A stretch of 64,000 nt of DNA. Source: Tridacna crocea. Lineage: Eukaryota; Mollusca; Bivalvia; Cardiida; Cardiidae. Location: assembly GCA_943736015.1 (NCBI GenBank), contig OX031070.1:21659673-21723672 (forward strand), written 5' to 3'. The position numbers were made by a program, and so were the translations under genes. Shown here piece by piece: positions 8,332 to 64,000 of this stretch. The notes under the pieces are model-generated. The model made no database searches, was not told the origin of the DNA, and saw only the letters and a list, made by a program, of their open reading frames with translations. The first letter of the stretch is position 1. The number at the start of each line of letters is the position of its first letter.

Positions 8332-8561
8332 TTAACTCATTACCAAACGACAATATTTTAGGCTTGTCCAAATTGAAAGCATTCGCAGAGGACAAAATAA
8401 AAGTGACTGAAAATTTGAAATTTGTTTTGTGAAGGGTAGAAAACATTGTGGGAAAAGGAGAAAATGCTGGTTACCAGCATTTTCTCCTTTTCCCACAATG
8501 TTTTCTAAAGGCTTTTTCTCTCAGGGGCGTCAAAAGTAGGGATTGTGTGGTAATGGGTTAA
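8332..8561. mobile_element. family A MITE, best-preserved copy
   Basis: Exact TTAA ends, terminal repeats TTAACTCATTACCA and TGGTAATGGGTTAA, and a 65-bp perfect palindrome at 8440-8504 (32-bp arms, single central T at 8472). The ends (CCC/GGG-like next to TTAA) resemble piggyBac MITEs. There is no coding capacity. Confidence 0.92.
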
Positions 8562-8814
8562 GAGGCAGATGCTGGCATTTTCAAGAAAAAAAAAGACAGT
8601 AGATTGAGTTCTTTTACAAATCTTGTGTACCAGCAGCTCTTATTAATGGTATAAGCAATCGAAATTGTGTTACACATTTTCCAAGACATGTCCGTCCGAG
8701 CCATCTTTTCGAACTTGCCGATTTTTCTTTTTTCGAATTGTCACTTGTATGTGTTAGTGTTTTGTTGTAATCACAGTTGATCCGGTAAAGGGACCATCTG
8801 AATTAAGCAACAAC

Positions 8815-23459: not shown

Positions 23460-23925
23460 AGAGCCATGGTATGGCAAAACAGGGTTTAACCCTTTACCAA
23501 ATAATCCCTGGTTTTTGCGACCCTGAGATAGAAACCTTTTGAAAACATTGTAAGAAAAGGAGAAAATGCTGGTAACCAGCATTTTCTCCTTTTCCTACAA
23601 TGTTTTCTACACTGCTTGAAACAAATTTCAATATTTGAGTTATGTTTATTTGACCGTCTGCAAGTGCTTTTAATTTGGACCAGTCTAATATTCTGTTGTT
23701 TGGGAAAAGGTTAATGCATCTCCGTGATACGTTGTATAACAAGCTAGCCAGCACATAGTAATGGAACCGTAATTTCCATTGTGTCTAACAACCGAGCAAA
23801 TGGTCCTTGGATATAGAAATTTACCAAGAGCAAAAAGTTTCGATGCAGGCGCAGACTGAAATGAGTCGACATTTTTTCCAGATAAATTAAATCCTCGTTT
23901 TACAGGGCATGGTTCATTTATACAT
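23460..23925. mobile_element. family E repeat, split by family A
   Basis: GCCATGGTATGGCAAAACAGGG before the A copy and TGCATCTCCGTGATACG after it correspond to the continuous CATGCTCTGACAAAAGGG..TTAATGCATC of other E copies. The remainder (GTCTAACAACCGAGCAAATGG, CAGGCGCAGACTG, CAGGGCATGGTTCAT) is intact. The 157-aa - strand ORF 23685-24158 runs over this repeat. Confidence 0.7.
23486..23714. mobile_element. family A MITE nested in family E
   Basis: TTAACCCTTTACCAAATAA on the left, TTTGGGAAAAGGTTAA on the right. The palindrome is centred on GCTGGTAACCAGC. Arms read ATTGTAAGAAAAGG and CCTTTTCCTACAAT, one of the two changed pairs being complementary. Confidence 0.88.
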
Positions 23926-28800: not shown

Positions 28801-30419
28801 AGCTCACCTGAGCACAACGTGCTCAAGGGGAGCTTTTAGGATCACCCGGTGTCCGTCGTCCGTCGTGCGTCGTGCGTCGTCCGTCGTGCGTCAGTGCGTC
28901 GTGCGTCGTCAACAATTCTTTAAACATCAACTTCTCCTAAACCACTGGGCGGATTTGGACCAAACTTGGCTGGAATGTTCCTTGGGAGGTCCTCTTTAAA
29001 AATTGTTCACAGAATTTGATTCCGTCAAAAACTCTGGTTGCCATGGCAACGAAATGGAATTTTTTAGCAAATTCTTTAAAAATCTTCTTCTCTGAAACCG
29101 CTGGCCAGATTTTAAAATAATTTCACACAGATGTTCCTTGGGTGACCCTTTTCAAAAATTGTTCGCGAAATTTTGATCCGTCAAGAAACATGGCTCTGGT
29201 GAATGGGGGCTTCTTGCACTATACAGAAATGATGAAATTCTTAAAAATTCTTCTTCTCTGAAACCGCTGGCCAGATTTTAAAATAATTTCACACAGATGT
29301 TCCTTAGGTGACCCTTTTCAAAAATTGTTCGTGAAATTTTGATCCGTCAAGAAACATGGCTCTGGTGAATGGGGGCTTCTTGCACTGTACAGAAATGAAG
29401 AAATTCTTAAAAATTCTTCTTCTCTGTAACCGCTGGTCAGATTTTAAAATAATTTCACAGAGATGTTCCTTGGATGACCCTTTTCAAAAATTGTTCGCGA
29501 AATTTTGATCTGTCAAGAAACATGGCTCTGGTGAATGGGGGCTTCTTGCACTATACAGAAATGAAGAAATTCTTAAAAATTCTTCTTCTCAGAAACCGCT
29601 GGTTAGATTTTGAAATAATTTCACAGACTTGTTCCTTGGGTTACCCTTTTCAAAAATTGTTAGCGAAATTTTGATTGGTCAAGAAACATGGCTGTGGTGA
29701 ATGGGGGCTACTTGCACTATATAGAAATGAAGAAATTCTTGAAAATTCTTCTTCTCTGAAATGGCTGGACAGATTTTGAAATAATTTCACAGAGATGTTC
29801 CTTGGGTGACCCTTTTCTAAAATTGTTCGCAAAATTTTGATTAGCCAAGAAACATGGCTCTAGTGAATGGGGGCTACTTGCACTATATGGAAATGAAGAA
29901 ATTCTTGAAAATTCTTCTTCTCTGAAACCTGTGGTCAGATTTTAAAATAATTTGACAGAGATGTTCCTTGTGGGACCCTTTCCAAAAGCTGTACATATAA
30001 TTTTGATCCATCAAGAAACATGGTCTTGTGAATGGGGGCTACTTGCACTATATGGACATGATGAAATTCTTTAAAATTCTCTTTCTCTGAAACCCCTGGT
30101 CAGATTTTGAAATTATTTCAGAGAGATGTTCCTTGGGTGACCCTTTTCAAAACTTGTTTGTAAATTTTGATCCATCAAGAAACATGGCTCTCATGGATGG
30201 GGGCTACTTGCTCTTATACAGAAATGAAGAATTCTTAAAAACTCTTCTTTTTGAAACTGATGGTCAGATTTCGAAATGATTTTTACAGGTGACCTTTTGA
30301 AAATTGCTTGGCAAAATTATAAATTTGGTTCCAATGTTTGAATACCTAAAAAAAAAAATAGACTATGGTCATCTCAAAAATTCAGGTGAGCGATCCAGGG
30401 CCATCTTGGCCCTCTTGTT
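28801..30419 (+). mobile_element. rolling-circle-like non-autonomous element 1 with 166-bp tandem core
   Basis: The 5' end AGCTCACCTGAGCACAACG forms a small hairpin (GAGCAC/GTGCTC), followed by a GTCCGTCGT-rich stretch and a first unit containing GTTGCCATGGCAAC. About eight tandem units follow, marked by ATGTTCCTTGG at 29131, 29297, 29463, 29629, 29795, 29961 and 30126 (166 bp apart). The 3' end has CAGGTGAGC, complementary to the 5' start, then the hairpin AGGGCCATCTTGGCCCT and CTTGTT. This architecture resembles the Helitron/Helentron-like (pearl-type) non-autonomous elements of bivalves. It has no coding capacity. Confidence 0.85.
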
Positions 30420-30609
30420 CCAAGTGTTGTTTACATGTTTTCATATTCAAAGTGCAAGACCACTACTTTAGTGTTGTGCGCATAGGCAGCATCTTTTCCA
30501 AAAAGGTCTCTACTGGTTTTTAACATCAAGAAAGAGGAAATTTAGCAGTTTTTTTATTGTCAATTGTTTCCTTGATAGTTCTTCTCCCATTATACCATTT
30601 CTTTTTCAT

Positions 30610-32050
30610 TTAAGGCACATCCAAAGCAATCTGTAAAAAGAAATAAGCAGTATACCAGAGAAGCTTTGCTACAGACTTACAATGCTGTGAAAAATGATAA
30701 TGTCCCATGTGAAAGAGCTGCAAGACTTTTTGGGATACCAGCACAGACTCTGAGACAGAATCTGGGCAAAGTTCACGTAAATTCATCCTGGGGAAAATCC
30801 CCTTTCTCACATGATGAAGACGAATCATTAGTGAATCACCTTGAAGAACTTGTCAAAATTGGATATTGTTTATACAGCTCACAGTTGAAGGTTTTGGCGA
30901 CTGAAAATGCAGTGAAACTTGATCGAATTGATCAGGGGAAATCTTTAAGTGATAAATAGCACTATGAATTTCTGAAAAGATGGGGCTGTTGTTTAAAGGT
31001 ACTAAACCTAGGTCTTATTAATGCTGCTGGAACTGCTTTACCGCCATTCTAGTTTTTAAAGGAATGCTTAGAAATGATGATCTTCAAATTCAGCATATAT
31101 ATGTGATGTCTGAATCTGGCTGGTCAAATACTAATGAAATATTTGAAATCACATTTTCTAAAATACATCTAGAAAGGTTCAGAAGACAACCATGATCCAG
31201 TCCTTTTAATATATGATAGTCATGCACCCCATGTAAATTTAGGCTTTGTGAAATGGGCGATTGAACATGAGATTATTTCATTTGTTTCCCCCCTCCCATG
31301 CCTCTCATACTCTCCAACCCTTTTATGTTGGTTGTTTTTACACCTTTCAAAGCATGCTATTACAACCAATTAACCTGATGATGTCAAAAACAACGCGGAA
31401 GAGTTATATAAACAGGTATAATGTGGCTGCATTGTCTGGAAACGCTTACCTGAAAACTATGACACAAATATTGTTGCAGCATTAAAAAATGTGGTACATC
31501 TCCTATTAATGTAAATGCTGTTCCGGAAGAATTGTTGCTTCCCTCACAACCATTTACTAAGAAAAGGAAAGAACCAGAACAATTGTCCCTAACCATGCAG
31601 GAACTTTTGTCCCAGAAAATGATTGATACAGGTCCCAAAGAACAAAATCTCCAAATATCAAAGTATCTATAGCCAAACAGCCAAGACTCAGCGGGAAATG
31701 TATAACTGCAGACCTTGTAAAAGTAATTGAAGAGTATGACCACAACAAAACGAAACAGCTCTCAACTAAATCATGAAAAACAAAAGGAAAAATCAAAACG
31801 AATGCGTATAACCAAAACGATCAACTGGTGGATTATATCAAAGAAAAGGCTCCAGTTTGATAATAATGATGGTGTATCTGATTTAGAAGATGAAGATGAA
31901 AAGTGCTGCATTTGTAACCATTTCTCTCCTCCAGCTTTGAAAGACTGTTAAGTGGGCAGAATGCACAAAATATGGACACTGGTGCAATTTGAGATTTTTC
32001 TCTACAGTGAGAGTGGTCAGAAGACACGGGGATATCTATCACTGCTGTTA
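30610..32050 (+). pseudogene. decayed pogo/Tigger-like DDE transposase
   Basis: The sequence starts after an acceptor-like TTTTTCATTTAAG and encodes a Psq-type helix-turn-helix (YTREALLQTYNAV ... CERAARLFGIPAQTL, about 30648-30770), then a CENP-B-like DNA-binding region. In the expected DKWxxxFLKRW block the Trp is a TAG stop (about 30957). The first catalytic region is largely missing; AAGTALPP survives near 31023. A frame-shifted DDE core follows, with LLIYDSHAPHVN (second Asp, codon at 31215) and HTLQPFYVGCF, where the third catalytic Asp is Tyr. A C-terminal Cys-rich finger (CCICNHFSPPALKDC, then WAECTKYGHWC in another frame) ends at TAA 32048-32050. Several stops and shifts make it inactive. 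Related genes encode cut-and-paste transposases. Confidence 0.85.
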
Positions 32051-33426
32051 ACTCAGGCAAACATAATAAATTCCTAACATTGATTTAAGTGTGTTTTTAG
32101 GCTGCTTTAATAAAATTTAAAACAATAAATGTTGAACACTAACAGTTACAAGTTTACAGTTTACAGGCTAGTTATGTGACAATTTCAAGACTGGTGGGAG
32201 ATTTTTATGAGGGTGTACTTTCGTCAGACCACGACTCGAGGAAAAACAAATGTTGTGTAGTCCTTTTAAATAACTTTCTATGCAGTATCATACTAGAGCA
32301 GACAATAGATATGAAACTGTGGCAATGTGCAGCAAAGGGGTAAGTTGTGTTTTCGTTTATTTTCGTAAAACAACAACAACAACAAATTAGATGACGTCAT
32401 TACATTTGTCCACAGCTATTTCTAAAAATATTCACGACTCAAGGCATGTAAAGCATACGTGTGCTTAATTGTAAGAAATACTAAAAATCGATTTTCCTTA
32501 CGTTCGCAATTTAAATTGGTTATTGGACGAATGAAAACAATTGTGATAAAGTATTTAACCGCTACATAGATATCATTTCTTTACTTTTTTTTATTGTAAA
32601 TATATAAAATTACTAAGCGTTCATAGTCTTCATATTTCGGTGCATTTCCTATTGTAAACGGCTTGAAAACAATCTGAACATTACGCAGAATATTCAAGTA
32701 AGAGAATGATTCTTTGCAATCACAGTTCTACACACATGACTGCACTTAGTTAACCAATGAGAGATTTCCAACGTTATTCAATGATATTTAGTCGACGTAA
32801 TCTTCACCTTCCTGTCACATTCCTGAAATGCTTTCTGACAGAATTTTGATTAAATCACTGAACGCCTACACTTCAGAGCTTATTAAGGGATCCTTGGTTA
32901 ACTATGTTCTAGACTGTACAATTTTGGACTGGTTATCGTTATAGAATTTCTCACTGAAAGGGTTGAAATCTCTTTTTCCACAAAGTTTTCGAGGTTTTTT
33001 ATTTCTCGACATCATTAAAACTCCAGAGTGTTTTGTAAAACCTGAATATCTCACAAAATTTCGGACAGGGACTGGATAAAATAAACCTAAGCTTTTACGA
33101 TATTCATAAAGGTTCGTTTTGACACGTTTTGGTCGAAAGAGACACATGGTATCGCGAAGATTTGGTGAAAATTCATCAGGAGGTTACTATTAAGAAGATA
33201 CAGTAAGTGAGAGTAGATTATTTCTGGTGACAGTATTACATACCTGATTACATCCCGTAATTCAATGACAGATTCTTTGCGTATATAATACATCTCTCGT
33301 GACAATCTGGGAGTAACGTACTAACGGATATCAAATGAACTTATACAGCCTATCTTCGACTGGTACGATTTATCCCGGGCTTCTGTTTCCTTTCTCTATA
33401 ACATGTTAAAGAGATGTAGCACTGTC
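32051..33426. other. mostly nothing recognised; one family A fragment
   Basis: Two AATAAA-like sites at about 32109 and 32123 could belong to the dead transposase. A weak A remnant is visible at about 32945-33040 (AGGTTTTTTATTTCTCGACATC). ORFs at 32902-33305 (-) are unsupported. Confidence 0.4.
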
Positions 33427-33668
33427 TTAACCCTTTACCACACAATGACGTCTTTTAACACCATGACGTCTTTTAACACCTTTAAAAAGGGAAGGGTTTT
33501 GAAAACATTGTGGGAAAGGAGAAAGTGCTGGTTACCAGCATTTTCTCCTTTCCCCACAATGTTTTCTACCATATCAAAGAAAAATTATTTCATATGAGCT
33601 ACATTGAAACTCTCATCTGCAAATGCCTTCAGTTCAGATTGGGCTAAAATTTCGTTGTGTGGTAAAGG
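33427..33668. mobile_element. family A MITE copy
   Basis: TTAACCCTTTACCACACAATG on the left with a short internal duplication (ACGTCTTTTAACACC twice). The central palindrome is intact (GTGGGAAAGGAG, GCTGGTTACCAGC). The right end TGTGGTAAAGGCTTGG has lost TTAA. Confidence 0.85.
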
Positions 33669-33819
33669 CTTGGTCCATTTACATTCTAACTATGCTATTA
33701 CATTGCACAGTCAGAAAGAAAGCCGTAGAAAACATCAATGAAAAAAAGAGGACAATGCAGATGACCTGAATTGCCTCCTTTTTGCATTCGTCTGTATATT
33801 CTTTCAATATCTCCCCGTG

Positions 33820-34310
33820 GGGTCCCGGGGGTTTTTACTGTATAGAATAGGACCTCGGCCTTTCTCTATGGCATGTCGTAGAAGGCGACTAAAATTAGAG
33901 ACAAACGGCTGCTTTCCTCGTAATTCGTAGGATTGCAGCAGGCTGGGTGGTTCTTATTCCAAATCCTATATTTTTTTCTCGATGTAAATAGCGTTTGGAA
34001 TGGGAATCAATTGGCCTGTGGGACCCCGTGTAGTTTAATCGGGGGTATAAGAATAAACCACTGCAGTCCCGCGATCGTCACATCTGCCATTTCATCTGGC
34101 GGAACAAAAGTGACAGCATGCATGTCGTAAAAGGCGACAAAAGGGGCATCATTTTGTGTTTCATCCATTCCTCATTTATCATGTTTGTCTTGTGTTGTTC
34201 GACATGTATGTTATTTTCACCTCACATTATTGTTTACTAAATAAGTGCGCCCAATATGACCTAAGTTGTCGACGGGCCTTAAAACACTATTCATTCATTC
34301 TTTCAATATC
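33820..34310 (+). mobile_element. SINE-like composite with ATTC tail
   Basis: GGGGTCCCGGGGGTTTTTAC and two copies of GCATGTCGTAGAAGGCGAC (about 33870 and 34118). The end is AATATGACCTAAGTTGTCGA, GGGCCTTAAAACAC and an ATTC tail. It is characteristic of molluscan SINE 3' ends. The tRNA-like head is not obvious. Confidence 0.55.
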
Positions 34311-34419
34311 GGTGAGTTTATGAATTTGCCGTCTGGTGTTTACGTATTTCATAGCCCACGTCTCGCAACCTATGTGATTTCTACAATTTGCAAGGCAACC
34401 GGCAAACTATAGCCGGTAT

Positions 34420-35147
34420 ACTATCTCACTTGGTTACAAAAAGGAATCATGCGCAATAATGTGAGCAGAAAAACTAAGGCTTTTGTCCTTAATTATACTG
34501 AGCCAGGCATCATATGAATAGGGGTTCATAAAATCAACTGTGTTTCACAAGTGATTGAGTTATGAGGTATACTGGTCCTTTAAACTGCTGGAAATCGACA
34601 ATCAGCAAAAAGCTTCGACTCGGGTCAGCGTGCGCGGATTGCTCATGCTGATCTTTTCGATATTTTTTATTATTGCAGAAGCATTTAAAGCATAGGCTCA
34701 TATAGTGTCTTCTATTATTTATTTTTTTAATTTGGCCGGAGATGGTTCCAGAAATTCCAATATAATATTCATTCAGAGGTCGTTCTATCTTTCTTTGAGG
34801 TTTAACCTGGTTTTAAGATTTATTTTTCTGTCAACGACTAACACATGGACCGACCCTAAAATGACAGATTGTCATCTCCACAATAATTGCCCAACTTTTA
34901 AATGGTATGTTTTAAATTCATGTTAATTTTATCCCATCATCCTCATTGTTTACTTTTTGAAAGTAATATACCCTAAACTGTTCCCTTTGTATTTCATTTC
35001 TTTTTTTATATATACTACTCAAAATTTGCTAGGGATCACCCTAAAAGATTCACGCTAAATATATATGTGCCATCAATCATATATGGTTTTAAAATGTTTT
35101 ACATCGCCATACTGATCAATAAAATGACCGATGGAAATGGATCTTTA
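34420..35147. other. family E fragment, otherwise nothing recognised
   Basis: E-like words ATACTGGTCCTTTAAACTG, ATCAGCAAAAAGCTTCGACT and GGGTCAGCGTGCGCGGATTG at about 34565-34690. The rest is AT-rich without features. Confidence 0.45.
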
Positions 35148-35370
35148 AGCCTTTACCTCACAATGCCGACAGTTAAAGACACTGAGAAAGAAGCCTTTGG
35201 AAAACATTGTTGGGAAAGGAGAAAATGCTGGATACCAGCATTTTCTCCTTTTCCAACGATGTTTTCTACCCTATGACAGACAGCATCGAGCACATTGCAT
35301 ATAGTTTTTGGTCGGCTAATGCTTTCAACTTGGACAAATCTAGAATATTAAAGAGTTTATGCCAAACTGT
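35148..35370. mobile_element. family A MITE copy
   Basis: CTTTACCTCACAATGCCGAC, GAAGCCTTTGGAAAACATTG and a palindrome with GTTGGGAAAGGAG / CTCCTTTTCCAAC (both arms changed). The right blocks GCTAATGCTTTCAACTTGGA are present and both terminal TTAA lost. Confidence 0.75.
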
Positions 35371-35779
35371 TGTAACATATAAATCCATACAGAAATATGT
35401 AAGTGATATCTATCAAAGTTTGAGTAGTATATTTGGATTTGAAAAGTATTAGAGACATTCGATATACCAAGATTTTTCTTGTTATATATCGTTGTAAAAG
35501 TTAATGCTGCAAGAGGGTATCGCTGTTACAGATAGAAGAAATATCCTCTTGGATATTTTTTTTACTTTTCTTATTTCGAATGTGTTCACCATTTTGGGCA
35601 AACGAAGCCTTAGTAGGGCGAATTTGACATAAAAAGAAGTCTACAGAAGCAGAGCACTTTCGAATTACTTGATTAATTACATGCAATACAACATAAATTC
35701 AGGAGGATACTGCACAGGGCTACAATAGATAGATCTTCTATAAAAGTAGCGATACATTTCTATCTTGATTATAATTGTG
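35371..35779. other. no feature recognised
   Basis: AT-rich noncoding sequence. Confidence 0.4.
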
Positions 35780-36040
35780 TCATGCCCTGTGATGAAGGGC
35801 TTGAAAGCATCTGCTAAAACTTTCAACCCATGTCAGCCTGCGCGGACTGTGAAACATTGTGATAACTGTATCAGCATGACTGTGGACTATTCTACCTGGT
35901 GATTCAGTCAGTTGTTGTACAGAACGGATTTTATGGATCAATAATCAGGTGATAACTTGCTTGGTGTTATACAGCATGAAGATGCATTAGAATCCCTTTT
36001 GCTGGAGCGCTGCACCATTATTTTCAGAATGTTGAATGCA
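35780..36040 (-). mobile_element. family E repeat, inverted
   Basis: CATGCCCTGTGATGAAGGGC, GTCAGCCTGCGCGGACTG, ACCTGGTGATTCAGTCAGT, TGGATCAATAATCAGGTGA and AGATGCATTAGAATCCCTTTT are E blocks in reverse order. Confidence 0.6.
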
Positions 36041-36524
36041 ATAAATACTATACGAGGCAAAATAAAACGGATAAAAAATTGTGCTCATTGAAAACTAAGA
36101 CCATTAAAGGTTTCGGAGCTGGTTTTTTTCCGTTTTCTTGAAAAAAATACATTGCACGATTTAGATGAATCGAATCTAATGCAGCGTGGTTTAGTATTAC
36201 ATGTTAAACTGGCATGATATACCCATGATGGCTCTAAAAGAAATTTTACGAGCTTGCACATCCGATACAGGTTTTTGAGTTTGCTTACTTCCGGTTCATT
36301 AGCGCAACATTGTCTCTTGTTAGAAGAATCTGAGCTATAAAACAACAACAACAAAAAAAAACATACAGTCATCTAACGGCCCGGAATTTTTCGTTGTTTA
36401 ACCCTTTAACTGCCAAAATTCAGTTTGCATTCAGCCGCTTTCGATGGCAGAAAAAAATATTGAAAATGGAAGATTTTTCATCACATAACCTTCCTTCTTT
36501 TTGATATAATATATCCATTACTTA
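36041..36524. other. no feature recognised
   Basis: AT-rich. The - strand ORF 36085-36372 is unsupported. Confidence 0.4.
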
Positions 36525-36831
36525 TTTCATTCTTTCCGGTAGTTTATCGAGAAATAACTGTGGGATATTTTTCGATATTTCGTGGTTACGACCAGTGAAA
36601 AAAATCGACTATATTTTCTAACTCTCCATTAAAGGCAGAAAGAGTAGTTCCCGCGCACTAGTTATGTAGGTGAAATGCGCTTGCCATTCAATCAGTTGAA
36701 AATCATCATGACGAATTAACCCTACATTTCTCACACTTAATGCGTTGTTATGCGGAGGGGGGTACACACGGCTAATTACTAAAAAATGACCTGTACTGGA
36801 ATTAGAGGTAGGCTCCAAAGATGCCCCGTCT
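36525..36831 (+). mobile_element. family J repeat copy (3' end replaced by family A)
   Basis: TTATTTCATTCTTTCCGGTAG, TATCGAGAAATAACTG, CGCGCACTAGTTATG, AATGCGTTGTTATGCGGAGG and CTGTACTGGAATTAG match 3464-3760. It abuts the A copy at 36832. Confidence 0.65.
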
Positions 36832-37057
36832 TTACCCATTACCACACATTCCCTACCTTTGACGCCCCTGAGAAGGAAGCCTTTAAAACATTGGGGGAAA
36901 AGGAGAAAATGCTTGTAACCAGCATTTTCTTCTTTTCCCATAATGTTTTCTACCCTTCACAAAACAAAATTCAAATTTTCAGTCAATTTTATTTTGTAGT
37001 CTGCAAATGCTTTCGATTTGGACAAGCCTAAAATTTTGTCGTTTGGTAAAGAGTTAA
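36832..37057. mobile_element. family A MITE copy
   Basis: Left TTTACCCATTACCACACATT, central palindrome GGGGAAAAGGAG...GCTTGTAACCAGC, right GTCGTTTGGTAAAGAGTTAA. A J-like CGAAAGATTGAAGTTTATTTC block follows at about 37106. Confidence 0.85.
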
Positions 37058-37237
37058 AAATAGAAAAGATTAGAAGCATAAACTAAATTGAAGTTCCTTT
37101 TTTGGCGAAAGATTGAAGTTTATTTCAAACTATATTGCGATCTTTCAACAAAAAACCAAATCTCTATGAATTCCTTATCTTACACACGTTCGGTATCTAT
37201 AAGCACTGTGTGACGTCATACTTCTTGTTCAGTTTTT

Positions 37238-38407
37238 AGCTCCACTGGCCGAAGGCCAGCGGGCTTATGTCATGGCCCGGTGTCCGTCGTGCGTGCGTCC
37301 GTCCGTGCGTGCGTTAACTTTTATTTCAAACATCTTCTTCTCTGAAACTACCCATCCAATTTTGATGAAACTTCACAGAAATGATCATGCCATGGTCCTC
37401 TTCAGAATTCTTTGAAAGAATTTTATTCCTTCAAAAACTCTGGTTGCCATGGCAACAAAACTGAAAAAATTCAAAAATTTGTAAAAATCTTTTTCTCTGA
37501 AACCATAAGGTCTAGGGCTACCAAATTTGGCGTGTAGCTTTATCTAGTGGACCTCTACCAACTTCCTGCAAATAATAGCCCTGGGGTCAAAATTGGCCCT
37601 GCCCCGGGTCATAAGTTTTATATGGGCTTATATAGGGAAAACTTTAAAATCCTTCTGGTACATAGCCATAGGGCCTAGGGCTACCAAAATTGGCATGTAG
37701 CTTTATTTAGTAGACCTCTACCCAGAGTGCCCAAATAATAGCCCAGGGGTCAAAATTGGCCCCGCCCCGGGGGTCACAAGTTTTATATGGGCTGGTATAG
37801 GGAAAACTTTAAAAATCTTCTCGTACCAAGCCATAAGGCCTAGGGCTACTCAATTTTGCATCTAGCTTTATCAAGTGGTTGTCTATCAAAGGTGCCCAAA
37901 TTGTAGCTGTGGGATTAAATTTGGCCCTGTCCTGGGGGTCAAAAGTTTTACATAGGGCTCATATAGGGATTTTTTTAAAAATCTACTTGTACCTAGCGAT
38001 AAGGCCTAGGGCTACCAAATTTTGCATGTAGCTTTATCTAGTGTGCCTCTACCAGGAGGGCCCAAATTATAATCTAAATTTACCCCTGTCTCATGGGTTT
38101 CATGTTTTACAGGGCCTTTTATTGAGAAAACTTTGAAAATCTTCTTGTTTATAACCACACATTCTAGACCTGTATTATTTGGTATGGGGCTTTATCTTGT
38201 AGACCTCCACCAGGATTCAAGTAATCGTAACTTTTGGGTCAAAATTGGGTTTGCCCAGGGGACCTCAACTTTTCGTAGGATTTTATGGAAAAAATTTAGT
38301 ATGTCCTCAAGTTTGAAACCAGTTGGCCAAATAATGCAATGTTTGACTTGTAGTGTTTTTACGAATTAGCCAGTGGAGCGATACAGGGCCATCATGGCCC
38401 TCTTGTT
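37238..38407 (+). mobile_element. rolling-circle-like non-autonomous element 2 with ~164-bp tandem core
   Basis: The 5' end AGCTCCACTGGCCGAAGGCC forms a small hairpin, followed by GTCCGTCGTGCGTGCGTCC. The first unit carries GTTGCCATGGCAAC (37443-37456), as in element 1. About five tandem units are marked by GTAGCTTTAT near 37534, 37697, 37862 and 38028. The 3' end reads CCAGTGGAGC, complementary to the 5' GCTCCACTGG, then the hairpin AGGGCCATCATGGCCCT and CTTGTT. Confidence 0.85.
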
Positions 38408-39309
38408 ATTATTGAAGAATACCACGTTCGCAGAAGTTTGCGGTTTTAGATACTTTAAAACTTTGCTTGTAATTCTTAATATATCGTTATCTGATAAAAT
38501 GAATCTAACATCCGTTGTCTTATTGGGAAAAAAGTTTATCTCACTCGTCTAAAAAATATAATTTAGACTGGCAAAGGCATTTTTCCTGTCTATTTTAATA
38601 AACTCTTAATTCAAACCTCTAAAAGACAGATACTGTATTTCTCCTATTGCACTGAGAGGGTCAAATCATTATTTCGGCAGACCACAAGAGAAAAGATCAG
38701 ACTTGTCAATATTAAAAGCATTTGCAAAAAAAAAATGTAAATGTGACTTAAATTGTTAGACTTTGATAGGGTAGGAAACAGTTTGGAAAAATGTGAAAAT
38801 TCTGGTGACCAGCATTTTGTTACTTTTTCCCTGCGTTGTTTCTAGAGCCTTTTACTCAAGGTCATTAAAAATGAGGGTTAAATTTCTCTTTGATATAAAA
38901 TTTAATCAATGCCGGATGCGAAATTGTTTTTTGATATTGGACACAAATCTGTGTGTGTCTGAAATTTTATTGTAACGTGACGTCAACAAAATGTTGCCAA
39001 TATAAAATGAGAAATTAGTTATTTGGCGTGGGCCTCAAATGTGACAAAGCCACATTATCTGATAAAAATAGACAATTTCTAACGAAAGGAGTGAGCCATT
39101 CGTCAAGTGTTTTTGTTGTACTGATCGTGTAGAGTGCTGAAAAAGATGCATGCGAAGTATTGTATCGTTTCCACTTCCTTAAATATCCTATGAAAATAAG
39201 GCGCGTTACATAGCAGAATATAGCATCATAGTTTTCAAGTGTGCCATTTCGAAGAACATATTCGAAATAGCCTAAAATTTTGTAAGCTAACCCTCCATTC
39301 AGATAAATT
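38408..39309. other. noncoding, with one family A remnant
   Basis: Decayed A blocks at about 38690-38880 (AGCATTTGCAAAAAAAAA, TTCTGGTGACCAGCATTTTG). The - strand ORF 39015-39371 has no recognised motif and ends in family C. Confidence 0.45.
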
Positions 39310-39516
39310 TTAACCCTTGGCTGCTTATCATTTACCTTTTGCAGACAGCGTAGATTAAGATCAGACTGCACAGAACGTGCAGTCTGATCTTGGATCTACG
39401 CCGTCCGATTTTGAGATATATTTCCCCCGAAACGTAACTTTGAAATAACATTTTTTTTTTGTTTTTACTATCGAATTGAAAAATTCATTTTAGTTATTTA
39501 GCAGGATAAGGGTTAA
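39310..39516. mobile_element. family C MITE, complete copy
   Basis: TTAACCCTTGGCTGCTTA on the left, TTTAGCAGGATAAGGGTTAA on the right, with the AAGATCAGACTGCAC / GTGCAGTCTGATCTT palindrome. The TTAA ends and CCCTTA/TAAGGG termini support piggyBac-like mobilisation. Confidence 0.9.
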
Positions 39517-39584
39517 AAGGAGGACACCACAAGTCTCTTTCGTGCTTTCCCCCTTTCGTGTGTTCTGCGATACTAGCTTCAGCG

Positions 39585-39800
39585 TTAACCCTAAGGCTGC
39601 AAATCTGTTCTCACTTACCAGTAGTGGACAGTGTAGATCACGATCAGACTGCATAGAATGTGCAGTATTATCTTAGATCTACGCTGTACAATGAGGATAT
39701 ATTTTTCCTACACAAGTAATTTTGAAATAGCAATATTCGGGTTATGTACTACTCATGGACTAGAAAGTTTCATGTTAGTTATTTAGCAGAATAAGTGTTC
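39585..39800. mobile_element. family C MITE copy
   Basis: TTAACCCTAAGGCTGCAAAT, a decayed palindrome (GATCAGACTGCATAGAATGTGC) and TTAGCAGAATAAGTGTTCA. Confidence 0.75.
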
Positions 39801-40036
39801 ATGCAACATTGGCAGTGCCAGAATATTTGATTAATTTTTCTGCTAAGATAACAAACAAGATTTTGAAAGTAATGTGAAACACTTCCCATACGAAATCCTT
39901 GTGATGAAGAAAAATTCAGGAACTTCAAATGGAAAGATTGATTTTTTTAACATTTATATGACGTTTTCCCCCGGCTAATTGTTTATACAAGTATATTCCC
40001 CCCCCAACCACCCACACCCCTTCCCCTCCAATAAAA
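39801..40036. other. no feature recognised; C-rich patch
   Basis: AT-rich sequence followed by a CCCC/CCACCC-rich patch at about 39998-40030. Confidence 0.4.
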
Positions 40037-42496
40037 AACAAGAGGGCAATGATGGCCCTGAGACTGCTCACCTGAGTCTATTGACCGAACATGAACCATC
40101 TAGTATCCCAGTGACCTAGTTTTTTATCAGAAAATTACCCATCATCAAACACTTTTGAGATATCAATAGGACAAACATTCTGACTAACTTTCATGAATAT
40201 TGGACTGAAAATGTGGCCTCTACAGCGTACAAAAGGTTTTTCTAAGATTTCACCAAGTGACCTAGTTTTGGACCCGACAATTACCCATTATCAAACTCTT
40301 TTGAGACATCACCAAAACAAACATTCTGACCAAGTCTGAAGAGTATCAAGCAGAAAATGTAGCCTCTAGAGTGTACACAGGGTTTTTCTAATATTTGACC
40401 CATAGACCTAGTTTTTGACTCCACATGACCCATTTTCAAACTCATTCAAGGTATCACCAGGACAAATATTATGAACAAGTTTTAGGAGTATCAGACTGAA
40501 AATGTGTCCTCCAGAGCATACAAAAGGTGTTTATAACATTTGACCTATTGACCCAGTTTTTGACCGAACATGACCCATTTTCAAACCCATCCAAGATATT
40601 ATAAAGGCAAACATTCTGACTGATTTTCAAGAGTGTTGGACTGAAAATGTGGCATCCAAAGCATATACAAGGTTTTTCTAAGATTTGACTGGGTGACCTA
40701 GTTTTTAACCCCCAAATAACAGTTTAAAAACTCATCTAATATATCATCAAGGCAAACATTCTGACTAACTTACAAGTTTTGGACTGAAAATGTGGTTTCT
40801 AGAGCCTACAAAAGGTTTTTCTAACATTTTACCTGGTGACCTAGTTTTTGACTCCACATGACCCATTTTCGAACGCGTCCAAGATGTCATAAAGGCAAAT
40901 ATTCTGATAAACTTTCAAGAGTTTTGGACTGAAAATGTGGCCTCTAGGGCATACACAAGGTTTATCTAAGATTTGACCTAGTGACTTAGTTTTTGACCCC
41001 ACATGACCCATTTTCGAAGTTGTACGAGATATCATCGAGATAAACATTCTGACCAACTTTCAAGAGTTTTGGAGTAAAAATGTGGCCTCTAGAGCGTACA
41101 CAAGGTTTTTCTAAGATTTGACCTAGTGACCTAGTTTTTGACCACATATGACCCATTTTCGAACTTGTCCGAGATATCATCAAGATAAATATTCTGACCA
41201 GCTTAGTGGTTTTTTATTTAATATGTGTCCTCTAGAGCGTACACAAGGTTTTTCTAAAATTTGACTTAGTGACCTAGTTTTTGACCCCACATGACCCATT
41301 TTCGATCTTGTCCGAGATATCATCCAGGCCAGGCAAACATCCTGACAAATTTTCATGAGTATCCGACTGAAAATGTGGCCTTTAGAGTTACACGAGGTTT
41401 TTCTAAGATATGACTTAGTGACCTAGTTTTTGACCTGGCATGACGCATTTTCAAACTCGTTATAGATCTCATTGAGGCAAACATCCTGACCAACTTTCAT
41501 GAGTATCGGACTGAAAATGTGGCCTATAGAGAATACACAAGGTTTTTCTAAGATTTGACCTAGTGACCTAGTTTTTGACCCGACATAAACCATTTTCGGA
41601 CTTGTCCGAGATATCATCAAGACAAACATTCAGACCAACTTTCAAGAGTTTTGGACTGAAAATGTGGCCTCGAGAGCCTACACAAGGTTTTTCTAAAATT
41701 TGACCTAGTGACCTATTTTTTGACCCGACATGACCCATTTTCAAACTCGTTTAAGATATCATCCAGGCAAACATCCTGACCAACTTTCATGAGTATCAGA
41801 CTGAAAATGTGGCCTCTAGAGCGTACACAAGTTTTTTCTAAGATTTGACCTAGTGACCTAGTTTTTAACCCGACATGACCCATTTTCGAACTCGTACGAG
41901 ATATCATCGAGGCAAAGATCTTGACCAACTTTCATGAGTATCGGACTGAAAATGTTGCCTCTAGAGGGTACACAAGGTTTTTCTAAAATTTGACCTAGTG
42001 ACCTAGTTTTTGACCTGACATGACCCATTTTCAATCTTGTCCGAGATATCATGAAGACAAACATTCTGAAGAACTTCAAGACTTTTGGACTGAAAATGTG
42101 GCCTCTAGAGCCTACAAAATGTTTTTTCTAAGATTTGACCTAGTGACCTAGTTTTTCACCACACATGACCCATTTTCGAAGTGGTCTGAGATATCATTCA
42201 GACAAACATCCTGACCAACTGTCATAAGTATCCGACTGAAAATGTGGCCTCTAGAGCGTACACAAGGTTTTTCTAAGATTTGACCTAGTGACCTAGTTTT
42301 TGACTCGACATGACCCATTTTCGAACCCCTCCGAGATTTTATCGAGGCAAACAACCTGACCAACTTTCATGAGTATCGGACCGAAAATGTGGCCTCTAGA
42401 GCGTACACAAGGTAAAAAGTTGACGACGGACGACGCACGACGGACACAGCACGATCACAATAGCTCACCATTAGCACTTTGTGCTCAGGTGAGCTA
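40037..42496 (-). mobile_element. rolling-circle-like non-autonomous element 3 with 145-bp tandem core
   Basis: It lies inverted. On the - strand the 5' end is AGCTCACCTGAGCACAAAG (42495 downward), followed by a GTCCGTCGT-rich stretch. Sixteen tandem units follow, marked on the + strand by AAAATGTGGCC-like words from about 40210 to 42384, 145 bp apart. Then comes CAGGTGAGC (40074-40066), the hairpin AGGGCCATCATTGCCCT (40059-40043) and CTCTTGTT. Because 145 is not a multiple of 3 the serial - strand ORFs of about 70 aa are frame-shifted copies of the repeat, not genes. Confidence 0.88.
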
Positions 42497-53641: not shown

Positions 53642-53869
53642 TTAACCCATTACCACACAATCCCTACTTTTGACGCCTCTGAGAAAGAAGCCTTTTGAAA
53701 ACACTGTAGGAAAAGGAGAAAATGCTGGTAACCAGCATTTTCTCCTTTTCCCACAGTGTTTTCTACCCTTCCCAGCACAAATTTCAATTTTTCAATCACC
53801 TTATTTTGTCGTCTGCAAATGCTTTCAATTTGGACCAGTCTAAAATTTTGTCGTGTGGTAATGAGTTAA
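53642..53869. mobile_element. family A MITE, complete copy
   Basis: TTAACCCATTACCACACAAT on the left, GTGTGGTAATGAGTTAA on the right, with a palindrome centred on GCTGGTAACCAGC. Both arms carry the CACTGT variant of CATTGT. Confidence 0.92.
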
Positions 53870-54048
53870 TCAATCCATAAAGCTGACCAGGGTTCGTATG
53901 CACTATTTATTTAACGTCTTTGATCCGTTTTTATCGAGTATTCTGACTTTCACTCTGAGACTCATTCTAGATTTCTAATGTAATGCAACTTCTGATAGCG
54001 AATGGTATATGAAAGCTTTCGTTTCTTCAATGAAATTTCTAACCCTTC

Positions 54049-54226: not shown

Positions 54227-54496
54227 CATTGTTCTATCAGACGGCAAAGCATTTGTAGAAACATTACCGTAGTTTATTACATACTTTACATCAATGATTA
54301 TCCTGCGATTGTATGTGACTTTTATTACGCGATGTAATTCGCAATAGCATGATCATCCTAGTTTAGAGTGGACATCTTGTTCACGATTTTCTTCGACAGC
54401 CGCCTACTTGATGGATCTCTTTTGAAATTCGATGCAGGCAAACTATTCTTGATCTACACATAATTAGCAAGGATAAACATTTTGACTCGATTTGCT

Positions 54497-54770
54497 AGAT
54501 AGGACTAAAGATCTACAAGATAGGACTAAAGATCTACAAGATAGGACTAAAGATCTGATAGATAGGACTAAAGATCTGCCAGATAGGACTAAAGATCTAC
54601 AAGATAGGACTAAAGATCTGATAGATAGGACTAAAGATCTACAAGATAGGACTAAAGATCTGCCAGATAGGACTAAGTATCTGCTAGATATGACTAAATA
54701 TCTGTCAGACAAGAATAAAGATCTGATAGTTAGGACTAAAGATCTGCTAGATAGGACGAAATTTTGCCAT
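54497..54770. repeat. 21-bp minisatellite, ~13 units, open on both strands
   Basis: The unit is GATAGGACTAAAGATCTACA + A with variants at the last codon. The + frame encodes the heptad DRTKDLx (x is Q, I or P) for about 107 codons but has no ATG before it. The - strand has an ATG-started 114-aa frame (54464-54808) reading RSLVLSx. The 3' units (54672-54770) are the most diverged. Coding function is unproven. Confidence 0.85.
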
Positions 54771-63474: not shown

Positions 63475-64000
63475 TTATTATTATTTCCCCCCCCCCCCCC
63501 CCATTTCGAAGAAAAGGGGGTATATTGCTTTGCACTTGTCGGTCGGTCCGTCGGTCGGTCGGTCCGTAGACCACATTTTTGTCCGGAGCATAACTCAAAA
63601 AGTATTTCAGGTAGCAACCTGAAACTACATAGGTGGATAGATCTCATTTAGAAGTGCAGTGCGCAAGAATCATAAATCTGCCCATCATATATTTTTGAAG
63701 TTATTGCCCTTTGTTGATTTTCATACTTAATTTTTGTCCGGAGCATAACTCTAAAAGTCTATCAGGTATCATCTTCAAACTTCATAGGTGGATAGATCTC
63801 ATTAAGGAAAAGTGCAGTGCACAAGTACCATAACTCTGCCCATCATATTTTTAGAGTTATTGCCCTTTGTTGATTTTCATACTTAATTTTTGTCTGGAGC
63901 ATTACTCAAAAAGTATTTCAGGTATCATCTTGAAACTACATAGATGGAAAGATCTTATTAAGGAGAAGTGCAGTGCACAAGAATCATAACTCTGCCCATC
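63475..64000 (+). repeat. tandem-core element, ~155-bp units, cut by window end
   Basis: A C run, GAAGAAAAGGGGGTATATTG and a TCGGTCGGTCCGTCGG stretch precede units containing TTGTCCGGAGCATAACTC at about 63579, 63735 and 63891 (155-156 bp apart). At least 2.7 units are seen and the 3' end is outside the window. Architecture (GTCCG-rich start then tandem core) parallels the three elements at 28801, 37238 and 40037, but the terminal sequence differs. Confidence 0.75.

Follow-up and report, generated by a model that had tools for sequence, protein, structure and literature searches.

Family-level covariation between the 5′ and 3′ subterminal repeats of non-autonomous Helentrons in Tridacna crocea

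Here we describe three transposable elements with tandem-repeat cores that lie in a 64,000-nt window of the Tridacna crocea genome (contig OX031070.1), together with their relatives in the 1.05-Gb assembly of 31 contigs, the one genome to which all searches were confined. These elements are non-autonomous Helentrons of the HINE/DINE-1 type (Helitron2 group), and the blocks that covary between their two ends are the subterminal inverted repeats (subTIRs), or asymmetric terminal inverted repeats (ATIRs), of such elements. We consider it probable (roughly 0.6) that these HINEs are spread by the Rep-helicase of autonomous relatives, and that pairing between the subTIRs opens a hairpin at the 5′ end and brings the ends together at termination.

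The original prediction had located the three elements exactly, at 28801–30419 (forward strand, element 1), 37238–38407 (forward strand, element 2), and 42496–40037 (reverse strand, element 3), and its reading of their termini was likewise borne out: the 5′ blocks are AGCTCACCTG, AGCTCCACTGG, and AGCTCACCTG, the 3′ blocks are CAGGTGAGC, CCAGTGGAGC, and CAGGTGAGC, respectively, and all three elements carry a small 5′ hairpin and a 3′ hairpin with CTTGTT. From 5′ to 3′, the common layout comprises a T-rich flank, an AGCTC... start, the 5′ subTIR, which folds through a 3-base loop onto a nearby inverted repeat (IR), a GTCCGTCGT-type microsatellite, the tandem core (periods of 166, 165, and 145 in elements 1, 2, and 3), the 3′ subTIR, a 17-base hairpin, and CTTGTT. 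All three elements thus carry the palindrome expected of a HINE, close to the 3′ end and following the 3′ subTIR. The microsatellites of elements 1 and 2 were detected by Tandem Repeats Finder and that of element 3 by eye; in element 3, moreover, a single base of the 3′ hairpin is altered (ATTGCCCT in place of ATGGCCCT), and the 5′ stem contains one mismatch. Classification as a canonical Helitron (Helitron1), which has 5′-TC and CTRR-3′ termini and no 5′ hairpin, was rejected, the ends here being (T)AGCTC...CTTGTT with a 5′ hairpin.

Since the window holds only two different subTIRs, and hence one change, a genome-wide test of the covariation was required. Ends were linked by position and strand, each 3′ end being joined to the nearest same-strand 5′ end within 6 kb. 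Among 72 5′ ends and 60 3′ ends, this yielded 25 pairs (47 5′ ends and 35 3′ ends stayed unlinked), to which seven elements from the window and other loci were added, giving 32 linked elements, 28 of which lie in the window or within the initial 4 Mb of contig C1. Over the first 10 bases, the 5′ and 3′ subTIRs were perfectly complementary in 21 of these, while seven pairs had one mismatch, three had two, and one copy had lost its 3′ block and hence showed no match; the inverted subterminal repeats that characterize HINEs were therefore present with at most one mismatch in 28/32 copies. Mean complementarity was 9.44 out of 10, compared to 8.38 with shuffled partners and 9.16 for the best of 5000 shuffles, so the predicted covariation extends beyond the three copies from which it was proposed. 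Any mislinking by the nearest-end rule would lower the match between 5′ and 3′ blocks. Because the permutation ignores shared descent, more weight is given to the family-level view, in which five distinct 5′ 10-mers (GCTCACCTGA, GCTCACCTGG, GCTCACCTTA, GCTCCACTGG, and GCTCTACTGG) are each matched by the 3′ block of one or more linked copies, and differences between end groups at subTIR positions 5, 6, 9, and 10 are mirrored at the opposite end. Non-complementary copies, which the original prediction had named as potentially damaging, were encountered in a limited form: 11 of the 32 are imperfect, ten by one or two bases and the last through loss of its 3′ block.

Both kinds of end are abundant. 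The exact 3′ hairpin followed by CTTGTT matched the genome 12,110 times (0 matches for a reversed control pattern), a number of exact 3′ ends in a single genome that makes these elements relevant to the annotation of such genomes. The 5′-end pattern (TAGCTC, 30–60 bases, GTCCGTC) gave 27,075 matches, some sites being counted repeatedly because the microsatellite lets one site match several times, vs. 181 for controls, with unequal strand counts (10,332 forward and 16,743 reverse). One stem pair of the 3′ hairpin occurs genome-wide as G-C (12,110), A-T (3,507), A.C (312), and G.T (315), corresponding to a Fisher odds ratio of about 430 in a 2×2 comparison in which loops of 3–6 bases were allowed for the G-C count and of exactly 5 for the other three forms. 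The 3′ hairpin is clearly retained as a hairpin, and its covariation, too, is mostly a difference between families. Additional 3′ searches returned 113 matches for a C-type 3′ end and 2,877 for a 3-base-loop form, in which each palindrome can be counted twice; these yielded few or no letters usable for linking ends.

The 5′ subTIR has two potential partners, the local IR and the distant 3′ block, and the latter is mostly the better complement. A local stem of at least five pairs was found in 58 of the 72 5′ ends, 55 of these with a 3-base loop (most commonly C-GAA-G, 17; C-AAC-G, 14; and C-AAA-G, 10, among the 72), and the HINE arrangement of an IR pairing with the 5′ subTIR and followed by a microsatellite was observed, with the qualifications that the IR is imperfect and that the microsatellite was required by the 5′-end pattern. 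For seven end groups, sequences were taken by eye (that of group A3 being a blend of copies); in every one, a mismatch or bulge located 5 to 8 pairs away from the loop breaks the local stem, whereas the 5′–3′ pairing is perfect. At the level of individual copies, a perfect 10-base complement was found in the 3′ block of 21/32 and in the local IR of 0/32 (1/72 among all 5′ ends). Calculations with DNA energies predict that the 5′–3′ duplex exceeds the local hairpin in stability in all seven end groups and in 27 of the 32 copies, with an advantage of 0.4 to 8.7 kcal/mol across the groups. These modeled energies would fit a switch mechanism, with the hairpin displaced by the 3′ subTIR, and an order in which the local hairpin is weaker than the long-range duplex represents a concrete prediction for a strand-switch model. 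It is conceivable, if rather unlikely, that the interruption is a designed weak point and that the ends form a one-way switch, with the strand-starting hairpin later replaced by the arriving 3′ subTIR. Bulge-type landmarks have been reported for other HUH enzymes and, by analogy, the bulge of the 5′ hairpin could be read by the Rep protein.

A search for a Rep/helicase-encoding relative with the same ends had also been suggested, and candidate loci with the same kind of 3′ end were found. A search with PF14214 gave 32 genome matches, and four Rep loci from it were extended (L046, L047, L049, and L053). The open reading frames (ORFs) of the first three encode 2728, 2575, and 2534 aa, respectively, and in each of these three loci a HINE-type 3′ end lies 1.9–3.4 kb downstream of the ORF, that of L049 having a hairpin of the AGGACC/GGTCCT form. 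Pfam searches identified Helitron_like_N and DUF6570 in L047, and PIF1 above the cut-off in the downstream part of both L047 and L049; L046 and L047 are 93% identical over 6.5 kb. The fourth locus, L053, contained no HINE-type 3′ end in the examined stretch, apart from one loose match within its ORF. Between the other three Rep ORFs and their 3′ ends, no convincing HINE 5′ end was found, the sole loose match (L047, position 11643) having no hairpin, and a GCTCTACTGG start at position 1294 of L049 does not match that locus's own CAGGTGAGC 3′ block. L046 and L047 are homologous right to the start of the examined upstream stretch, which places their 5′ ends still further upstream. The Helentron-like identity that had been proposed is therefore supported both by HINE anatomy and by Rep-helicase genes with a 3′ end of this kind downstream, while no autonomous 5′ end was reached. 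In a separate locus (L081, 1985–4000), a match to Herpes_teg_N (PF04843, E 3.8e-9), which we take to be a domain of the cysteine-protease type, was obtained for the N-terminal portion of a Helentron-type ORF. Helentrons have been described to encode OTU cysteine proteases (PMC4067079).

The anatomy, the family-level covariation, the covariation in the 3′ hairpin, and the shared kind of 3′ end downstream of Rep-helicase genes are established observations, from which a mechanism may be proposed. The elements would be mobilized by autonomous relatives within this genome, through their Rep-helicase protein. During rolling-circle replication, two structures would be open to the 5′ subTIR of the strand being moved: a terminal hairpin with its own IR, or a duplex with the 3′ subTIR, which lies immediately upstream of the 3′ hairpin. 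The 5′ hairpin would mark the start; once the 3′ end is reached, subTIR pairing would open it and bring the two ends together, a role in termination that was proposed by Bao and Jurka (2013). Complementary blocks would be selected for whenever an element jumps, so that every new family retains a matched pair.

Several observations weigh against this mechanism. Private changes in single copies were matched at the other end in none of the 32 linked pairs, which places the covariation between families and reduces it to a few family-level changes; such unmatched deviations are those expected of dead copies. Some of the 10-mers are thinly represented, with one linked copy for GCTCACCTGG, one perfect and one 9/10 copy for GCTCACCTTA, and one perfect linked copy for GCTCTACTGG (end groups C and D have one linked copy each, and F has two), although the exact partner of the last, CCAGTAGAGC, occurs in 16 of 29 3′ ends among the C-type matches listed, counted by eye in unlinked ends. 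One of the imperfect copies (C1:3105730) combines a GCTCTACTGG start with a CCAGTGGAGC end, blocks of two different groups. The predicted advantage of the 5′–3′ duplex amounts to just 0.4–1.3 kcal/mol in four of the seven end groups, and the energy of a hairpin cannot strictly be compared with that of a duplex. Among the autonomous candidates, Exo_endo_phos fell below the Pfam cut-off (24.3 vs. 24.5 bits in L047, and 20.1 in L049), and no fitting 5′ end was present in the 4 kb upstream of the extended Rep loci, so that the link through shared ends is made by the 3′ ends. Finally, covariation cannot single out DNA–DNA pairing, since a protein that reads both sites would produce an identical signature; the required 5′–3′ pairing of the original prediction is partly supported, as regards family-level covariation.

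Indeed, the subTIRs might be inverted copies of one protein-binding site that covary as the Rep of each family changes, the ends never pairing with each other, and we regard this as a substantial minority possibility. Inverted end sites are general among transposons, the same family-level covariation is predicted, and a further binding site might be provided by the near-copy present in the 5′ IR; a simple repeated-site model does not, however, predict that this third copy is never perfect over 10 bases while the 3′ copy is so in 21 of the 32 elements. A founder effect, whereby each family descends from one master whose ends matched by chance and were not selected afterwards, appears improbable. 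It would explain why private changes are unmatched, as neutral decay after insertion would leave them, and it sits well with there being just five distinct matched 10-mers, but the group differences at subTIR positions 5, 6, 9, and 10 are matched at the opposite end, and a chance match in every founder is unlikely unless the match is needed when jumping.

Ordinary cut-and-paste miniature inverted-repeat transposable elements (MITEs) with terminal inverted repeats, a class to which DINE-1 and pearl elements were assigned in earlier work (as related in the available portions of the literature cited here), can be rejected as very improbable. The ends are asymmetric, a 3′ hairpin is present, insertion follows a T-rich stretch, and the same kind of 3′ end lies downstream of Rep-helicase genes. 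The target duplications of cut-and-paste elements, named in the original prediction as evidence that would count against it, were not visible by eye in the flanks of the 18 elements for which both flanks were available; in each of these a T-rich stretch precedes the 5′ end, in agreement with the T-rich/TT insertion sites of HINEs. A search for paralogous empty sites in the sequence examined gave three candidate rows, none of them convincing, two coming from the query loci themselves and one being weak (73% over 86 bases).

The 3′ end (GGCCCTCTTGTT) is followed by AGCTC within 0–6 bases at 285 places genome-wide, vs. 16 for a control word. Head-to-tail junctions of this kind were considered as rolling-circle concatemers, and both sequenced cases proved not to be simple concatemers. 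At C1:1.35 Mb (C1:1351765, L065-L018 block), a pair of group A units (local alignments mostly 71–81% identical) precedes a 5′ end of another kind, and at C1:3.04 Mb (C1:3041174, L074) a group B element comes after one whose 3′ hairpin is of the AGGACC type. Since both join different units or families, insertion beside an existing 3′ end is suggested as the better fit for these two junctions. Concatemers may occur elsewhere, such as among the junctions listed that lie about 1.5 kb apart (e.g., three at C5:37.96 Mb).

The window elements share the Helitron2 anatomy described by Bao and Jurka (2013; PMC3627910), who reported paired ends with compensatory mutations between two related elements (Helitron-1N1_CQu and -1N2_CQu), and proposed that 5′–3′ pairing destroys the 5′ hairpin and sets the end point of replication; this and the following comparisons refer to the available parts of each source. 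Whereas that report concerned one element pair, several end groups from one genome are compared here, so that numbers can now be attached to the rule. Cg_HINE of Crassostrea gigas is similar in its 5′ subTIR, complementary IR, microsatellite (GTCY, GTCC, or GTCK in several), tandem-repeat core, 3′ subTIR, and palindrome, as well as in its T-rich insertion sites, lack of target duplication, and many subTIR pairs with one mismatch, a likeness drawn from anatomy and not from a letter-for-letter comparison of termini (PMC7492417). The DINE-1/HINE-Mo Helentrons likewise have subTIRs, which were shown for mite, mosquito, and fly Helentrons, along with a 3′ palindrome, central repeats, a TT target, and a Rep/helicase/endonuclease partner (PMC4067079). 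In the three window elements, 28–29 bases follow the 3′ subTIR. FoHeli1 and FoHeli2 of Fusarium oxysporum form related subgroups with differing 5′ hairpins, each with its own matching 3′ inverted repeat, and both have a GAA loop, as do the C-GAA-G hairpins described above; they differ in that no endonuclease domain was found in the fungal proteins, in their TCAG...ATTTT ends, and in their short 5′ hairpins without interruption (PMC5148889). Family-specific subTIR/ATIR pairs, along with compensatory changes in them, are thus already on record (PMC3627910; PMC4067079; PMC5148889; PMC7492417), and with both rule and mechanism in print our finding amounts to a rediscovery that adds useful measurements and no new rule. 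An interrupted 5′ hairpin combined with a perfect 5′–3′ pairing of higher predicted stability was not found described in the available text of the cited Helitron2/Helentron papers, and among the titles and abstract openings listed by literature searches that left most subscription journals outside their reach, no other addressed the covariation of these ends. From a practical perspective, such matching allows the two ends of highly repeated elements to be linked with each other and families to be sorted.

In detail, element 1 is a complete HINE of end group A (28801–30419, forward strand). Its 5′ hairpin (28801–28834) consists of the subTIR GCTCACCTGA (28802–28811), which pairs 10/10 with the 3′ block, an inner stem (GAGCAC/GTGCTC), and the interrupted IR, and is followed by a CGTCGTG-type microsatellite (28854–28909), a tandem core of 7.3 copies with a period of 166 (29069–30282), the 3′ subTIR TCAGGTGAGC (30382–30391), the 3′ hairpin AGGGCC-ATCTT-GGCCCT (30397–30413), and CTTGTT (30414–30419). 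Element 2, a complete HINE of end group B (37238–38407, forward strand), comprises the 5′ hairpin CTGGCC-GAA-GGCCAG with an interrupted outer stem (37238–37265), the 5′ subTIR GCTCCACTGG (37239–37248), a microsatellite (37282–37314), a core of 3.5 copies with a period of 165 (37503–38071), the 3′ subTIR CCAGTGGAGC (38370–38379), the 3′ hairpin AGGGCC-ATCAT-GGCCCT (38385–38401), and CTTGTT (38402–38407). Element 3, a complete HINE of end group A2 on the reverse strand (40037–42496), has a 5′ hairpin with an interrupted IR, for which the local fold energy was computed (42463–42496), the 5′ subTIR GCTCACCTGA (42486–42495), a core of 15.6 copies with a period of 145 (40157–42413), the 3′ subTIR TCAGGTGAGC (40066–40075), the 3′ hairpin AGGGCC-ATCAT-TGCCCT with its single altered stem base (40043–40059), and CTTGTT (40037–40042).

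Other repeats were also observed in the window. Tandem arrays lie at its edges, at 8–315 (period 107) and 63575–64000 (period 156), the latter of which could be another HINE core, and a 21-bp tandem repeat, with a unit length that is a multiple of three, occurs in 13 copies with 84% matches at 54489–54761. A very common interspersed repeat of about 230 bp was found in the flanks of L046, L047, and L049 and in several copies in the window, in both orientations (e.g., 8334–8562, 23485–23715, and 53642–53870).

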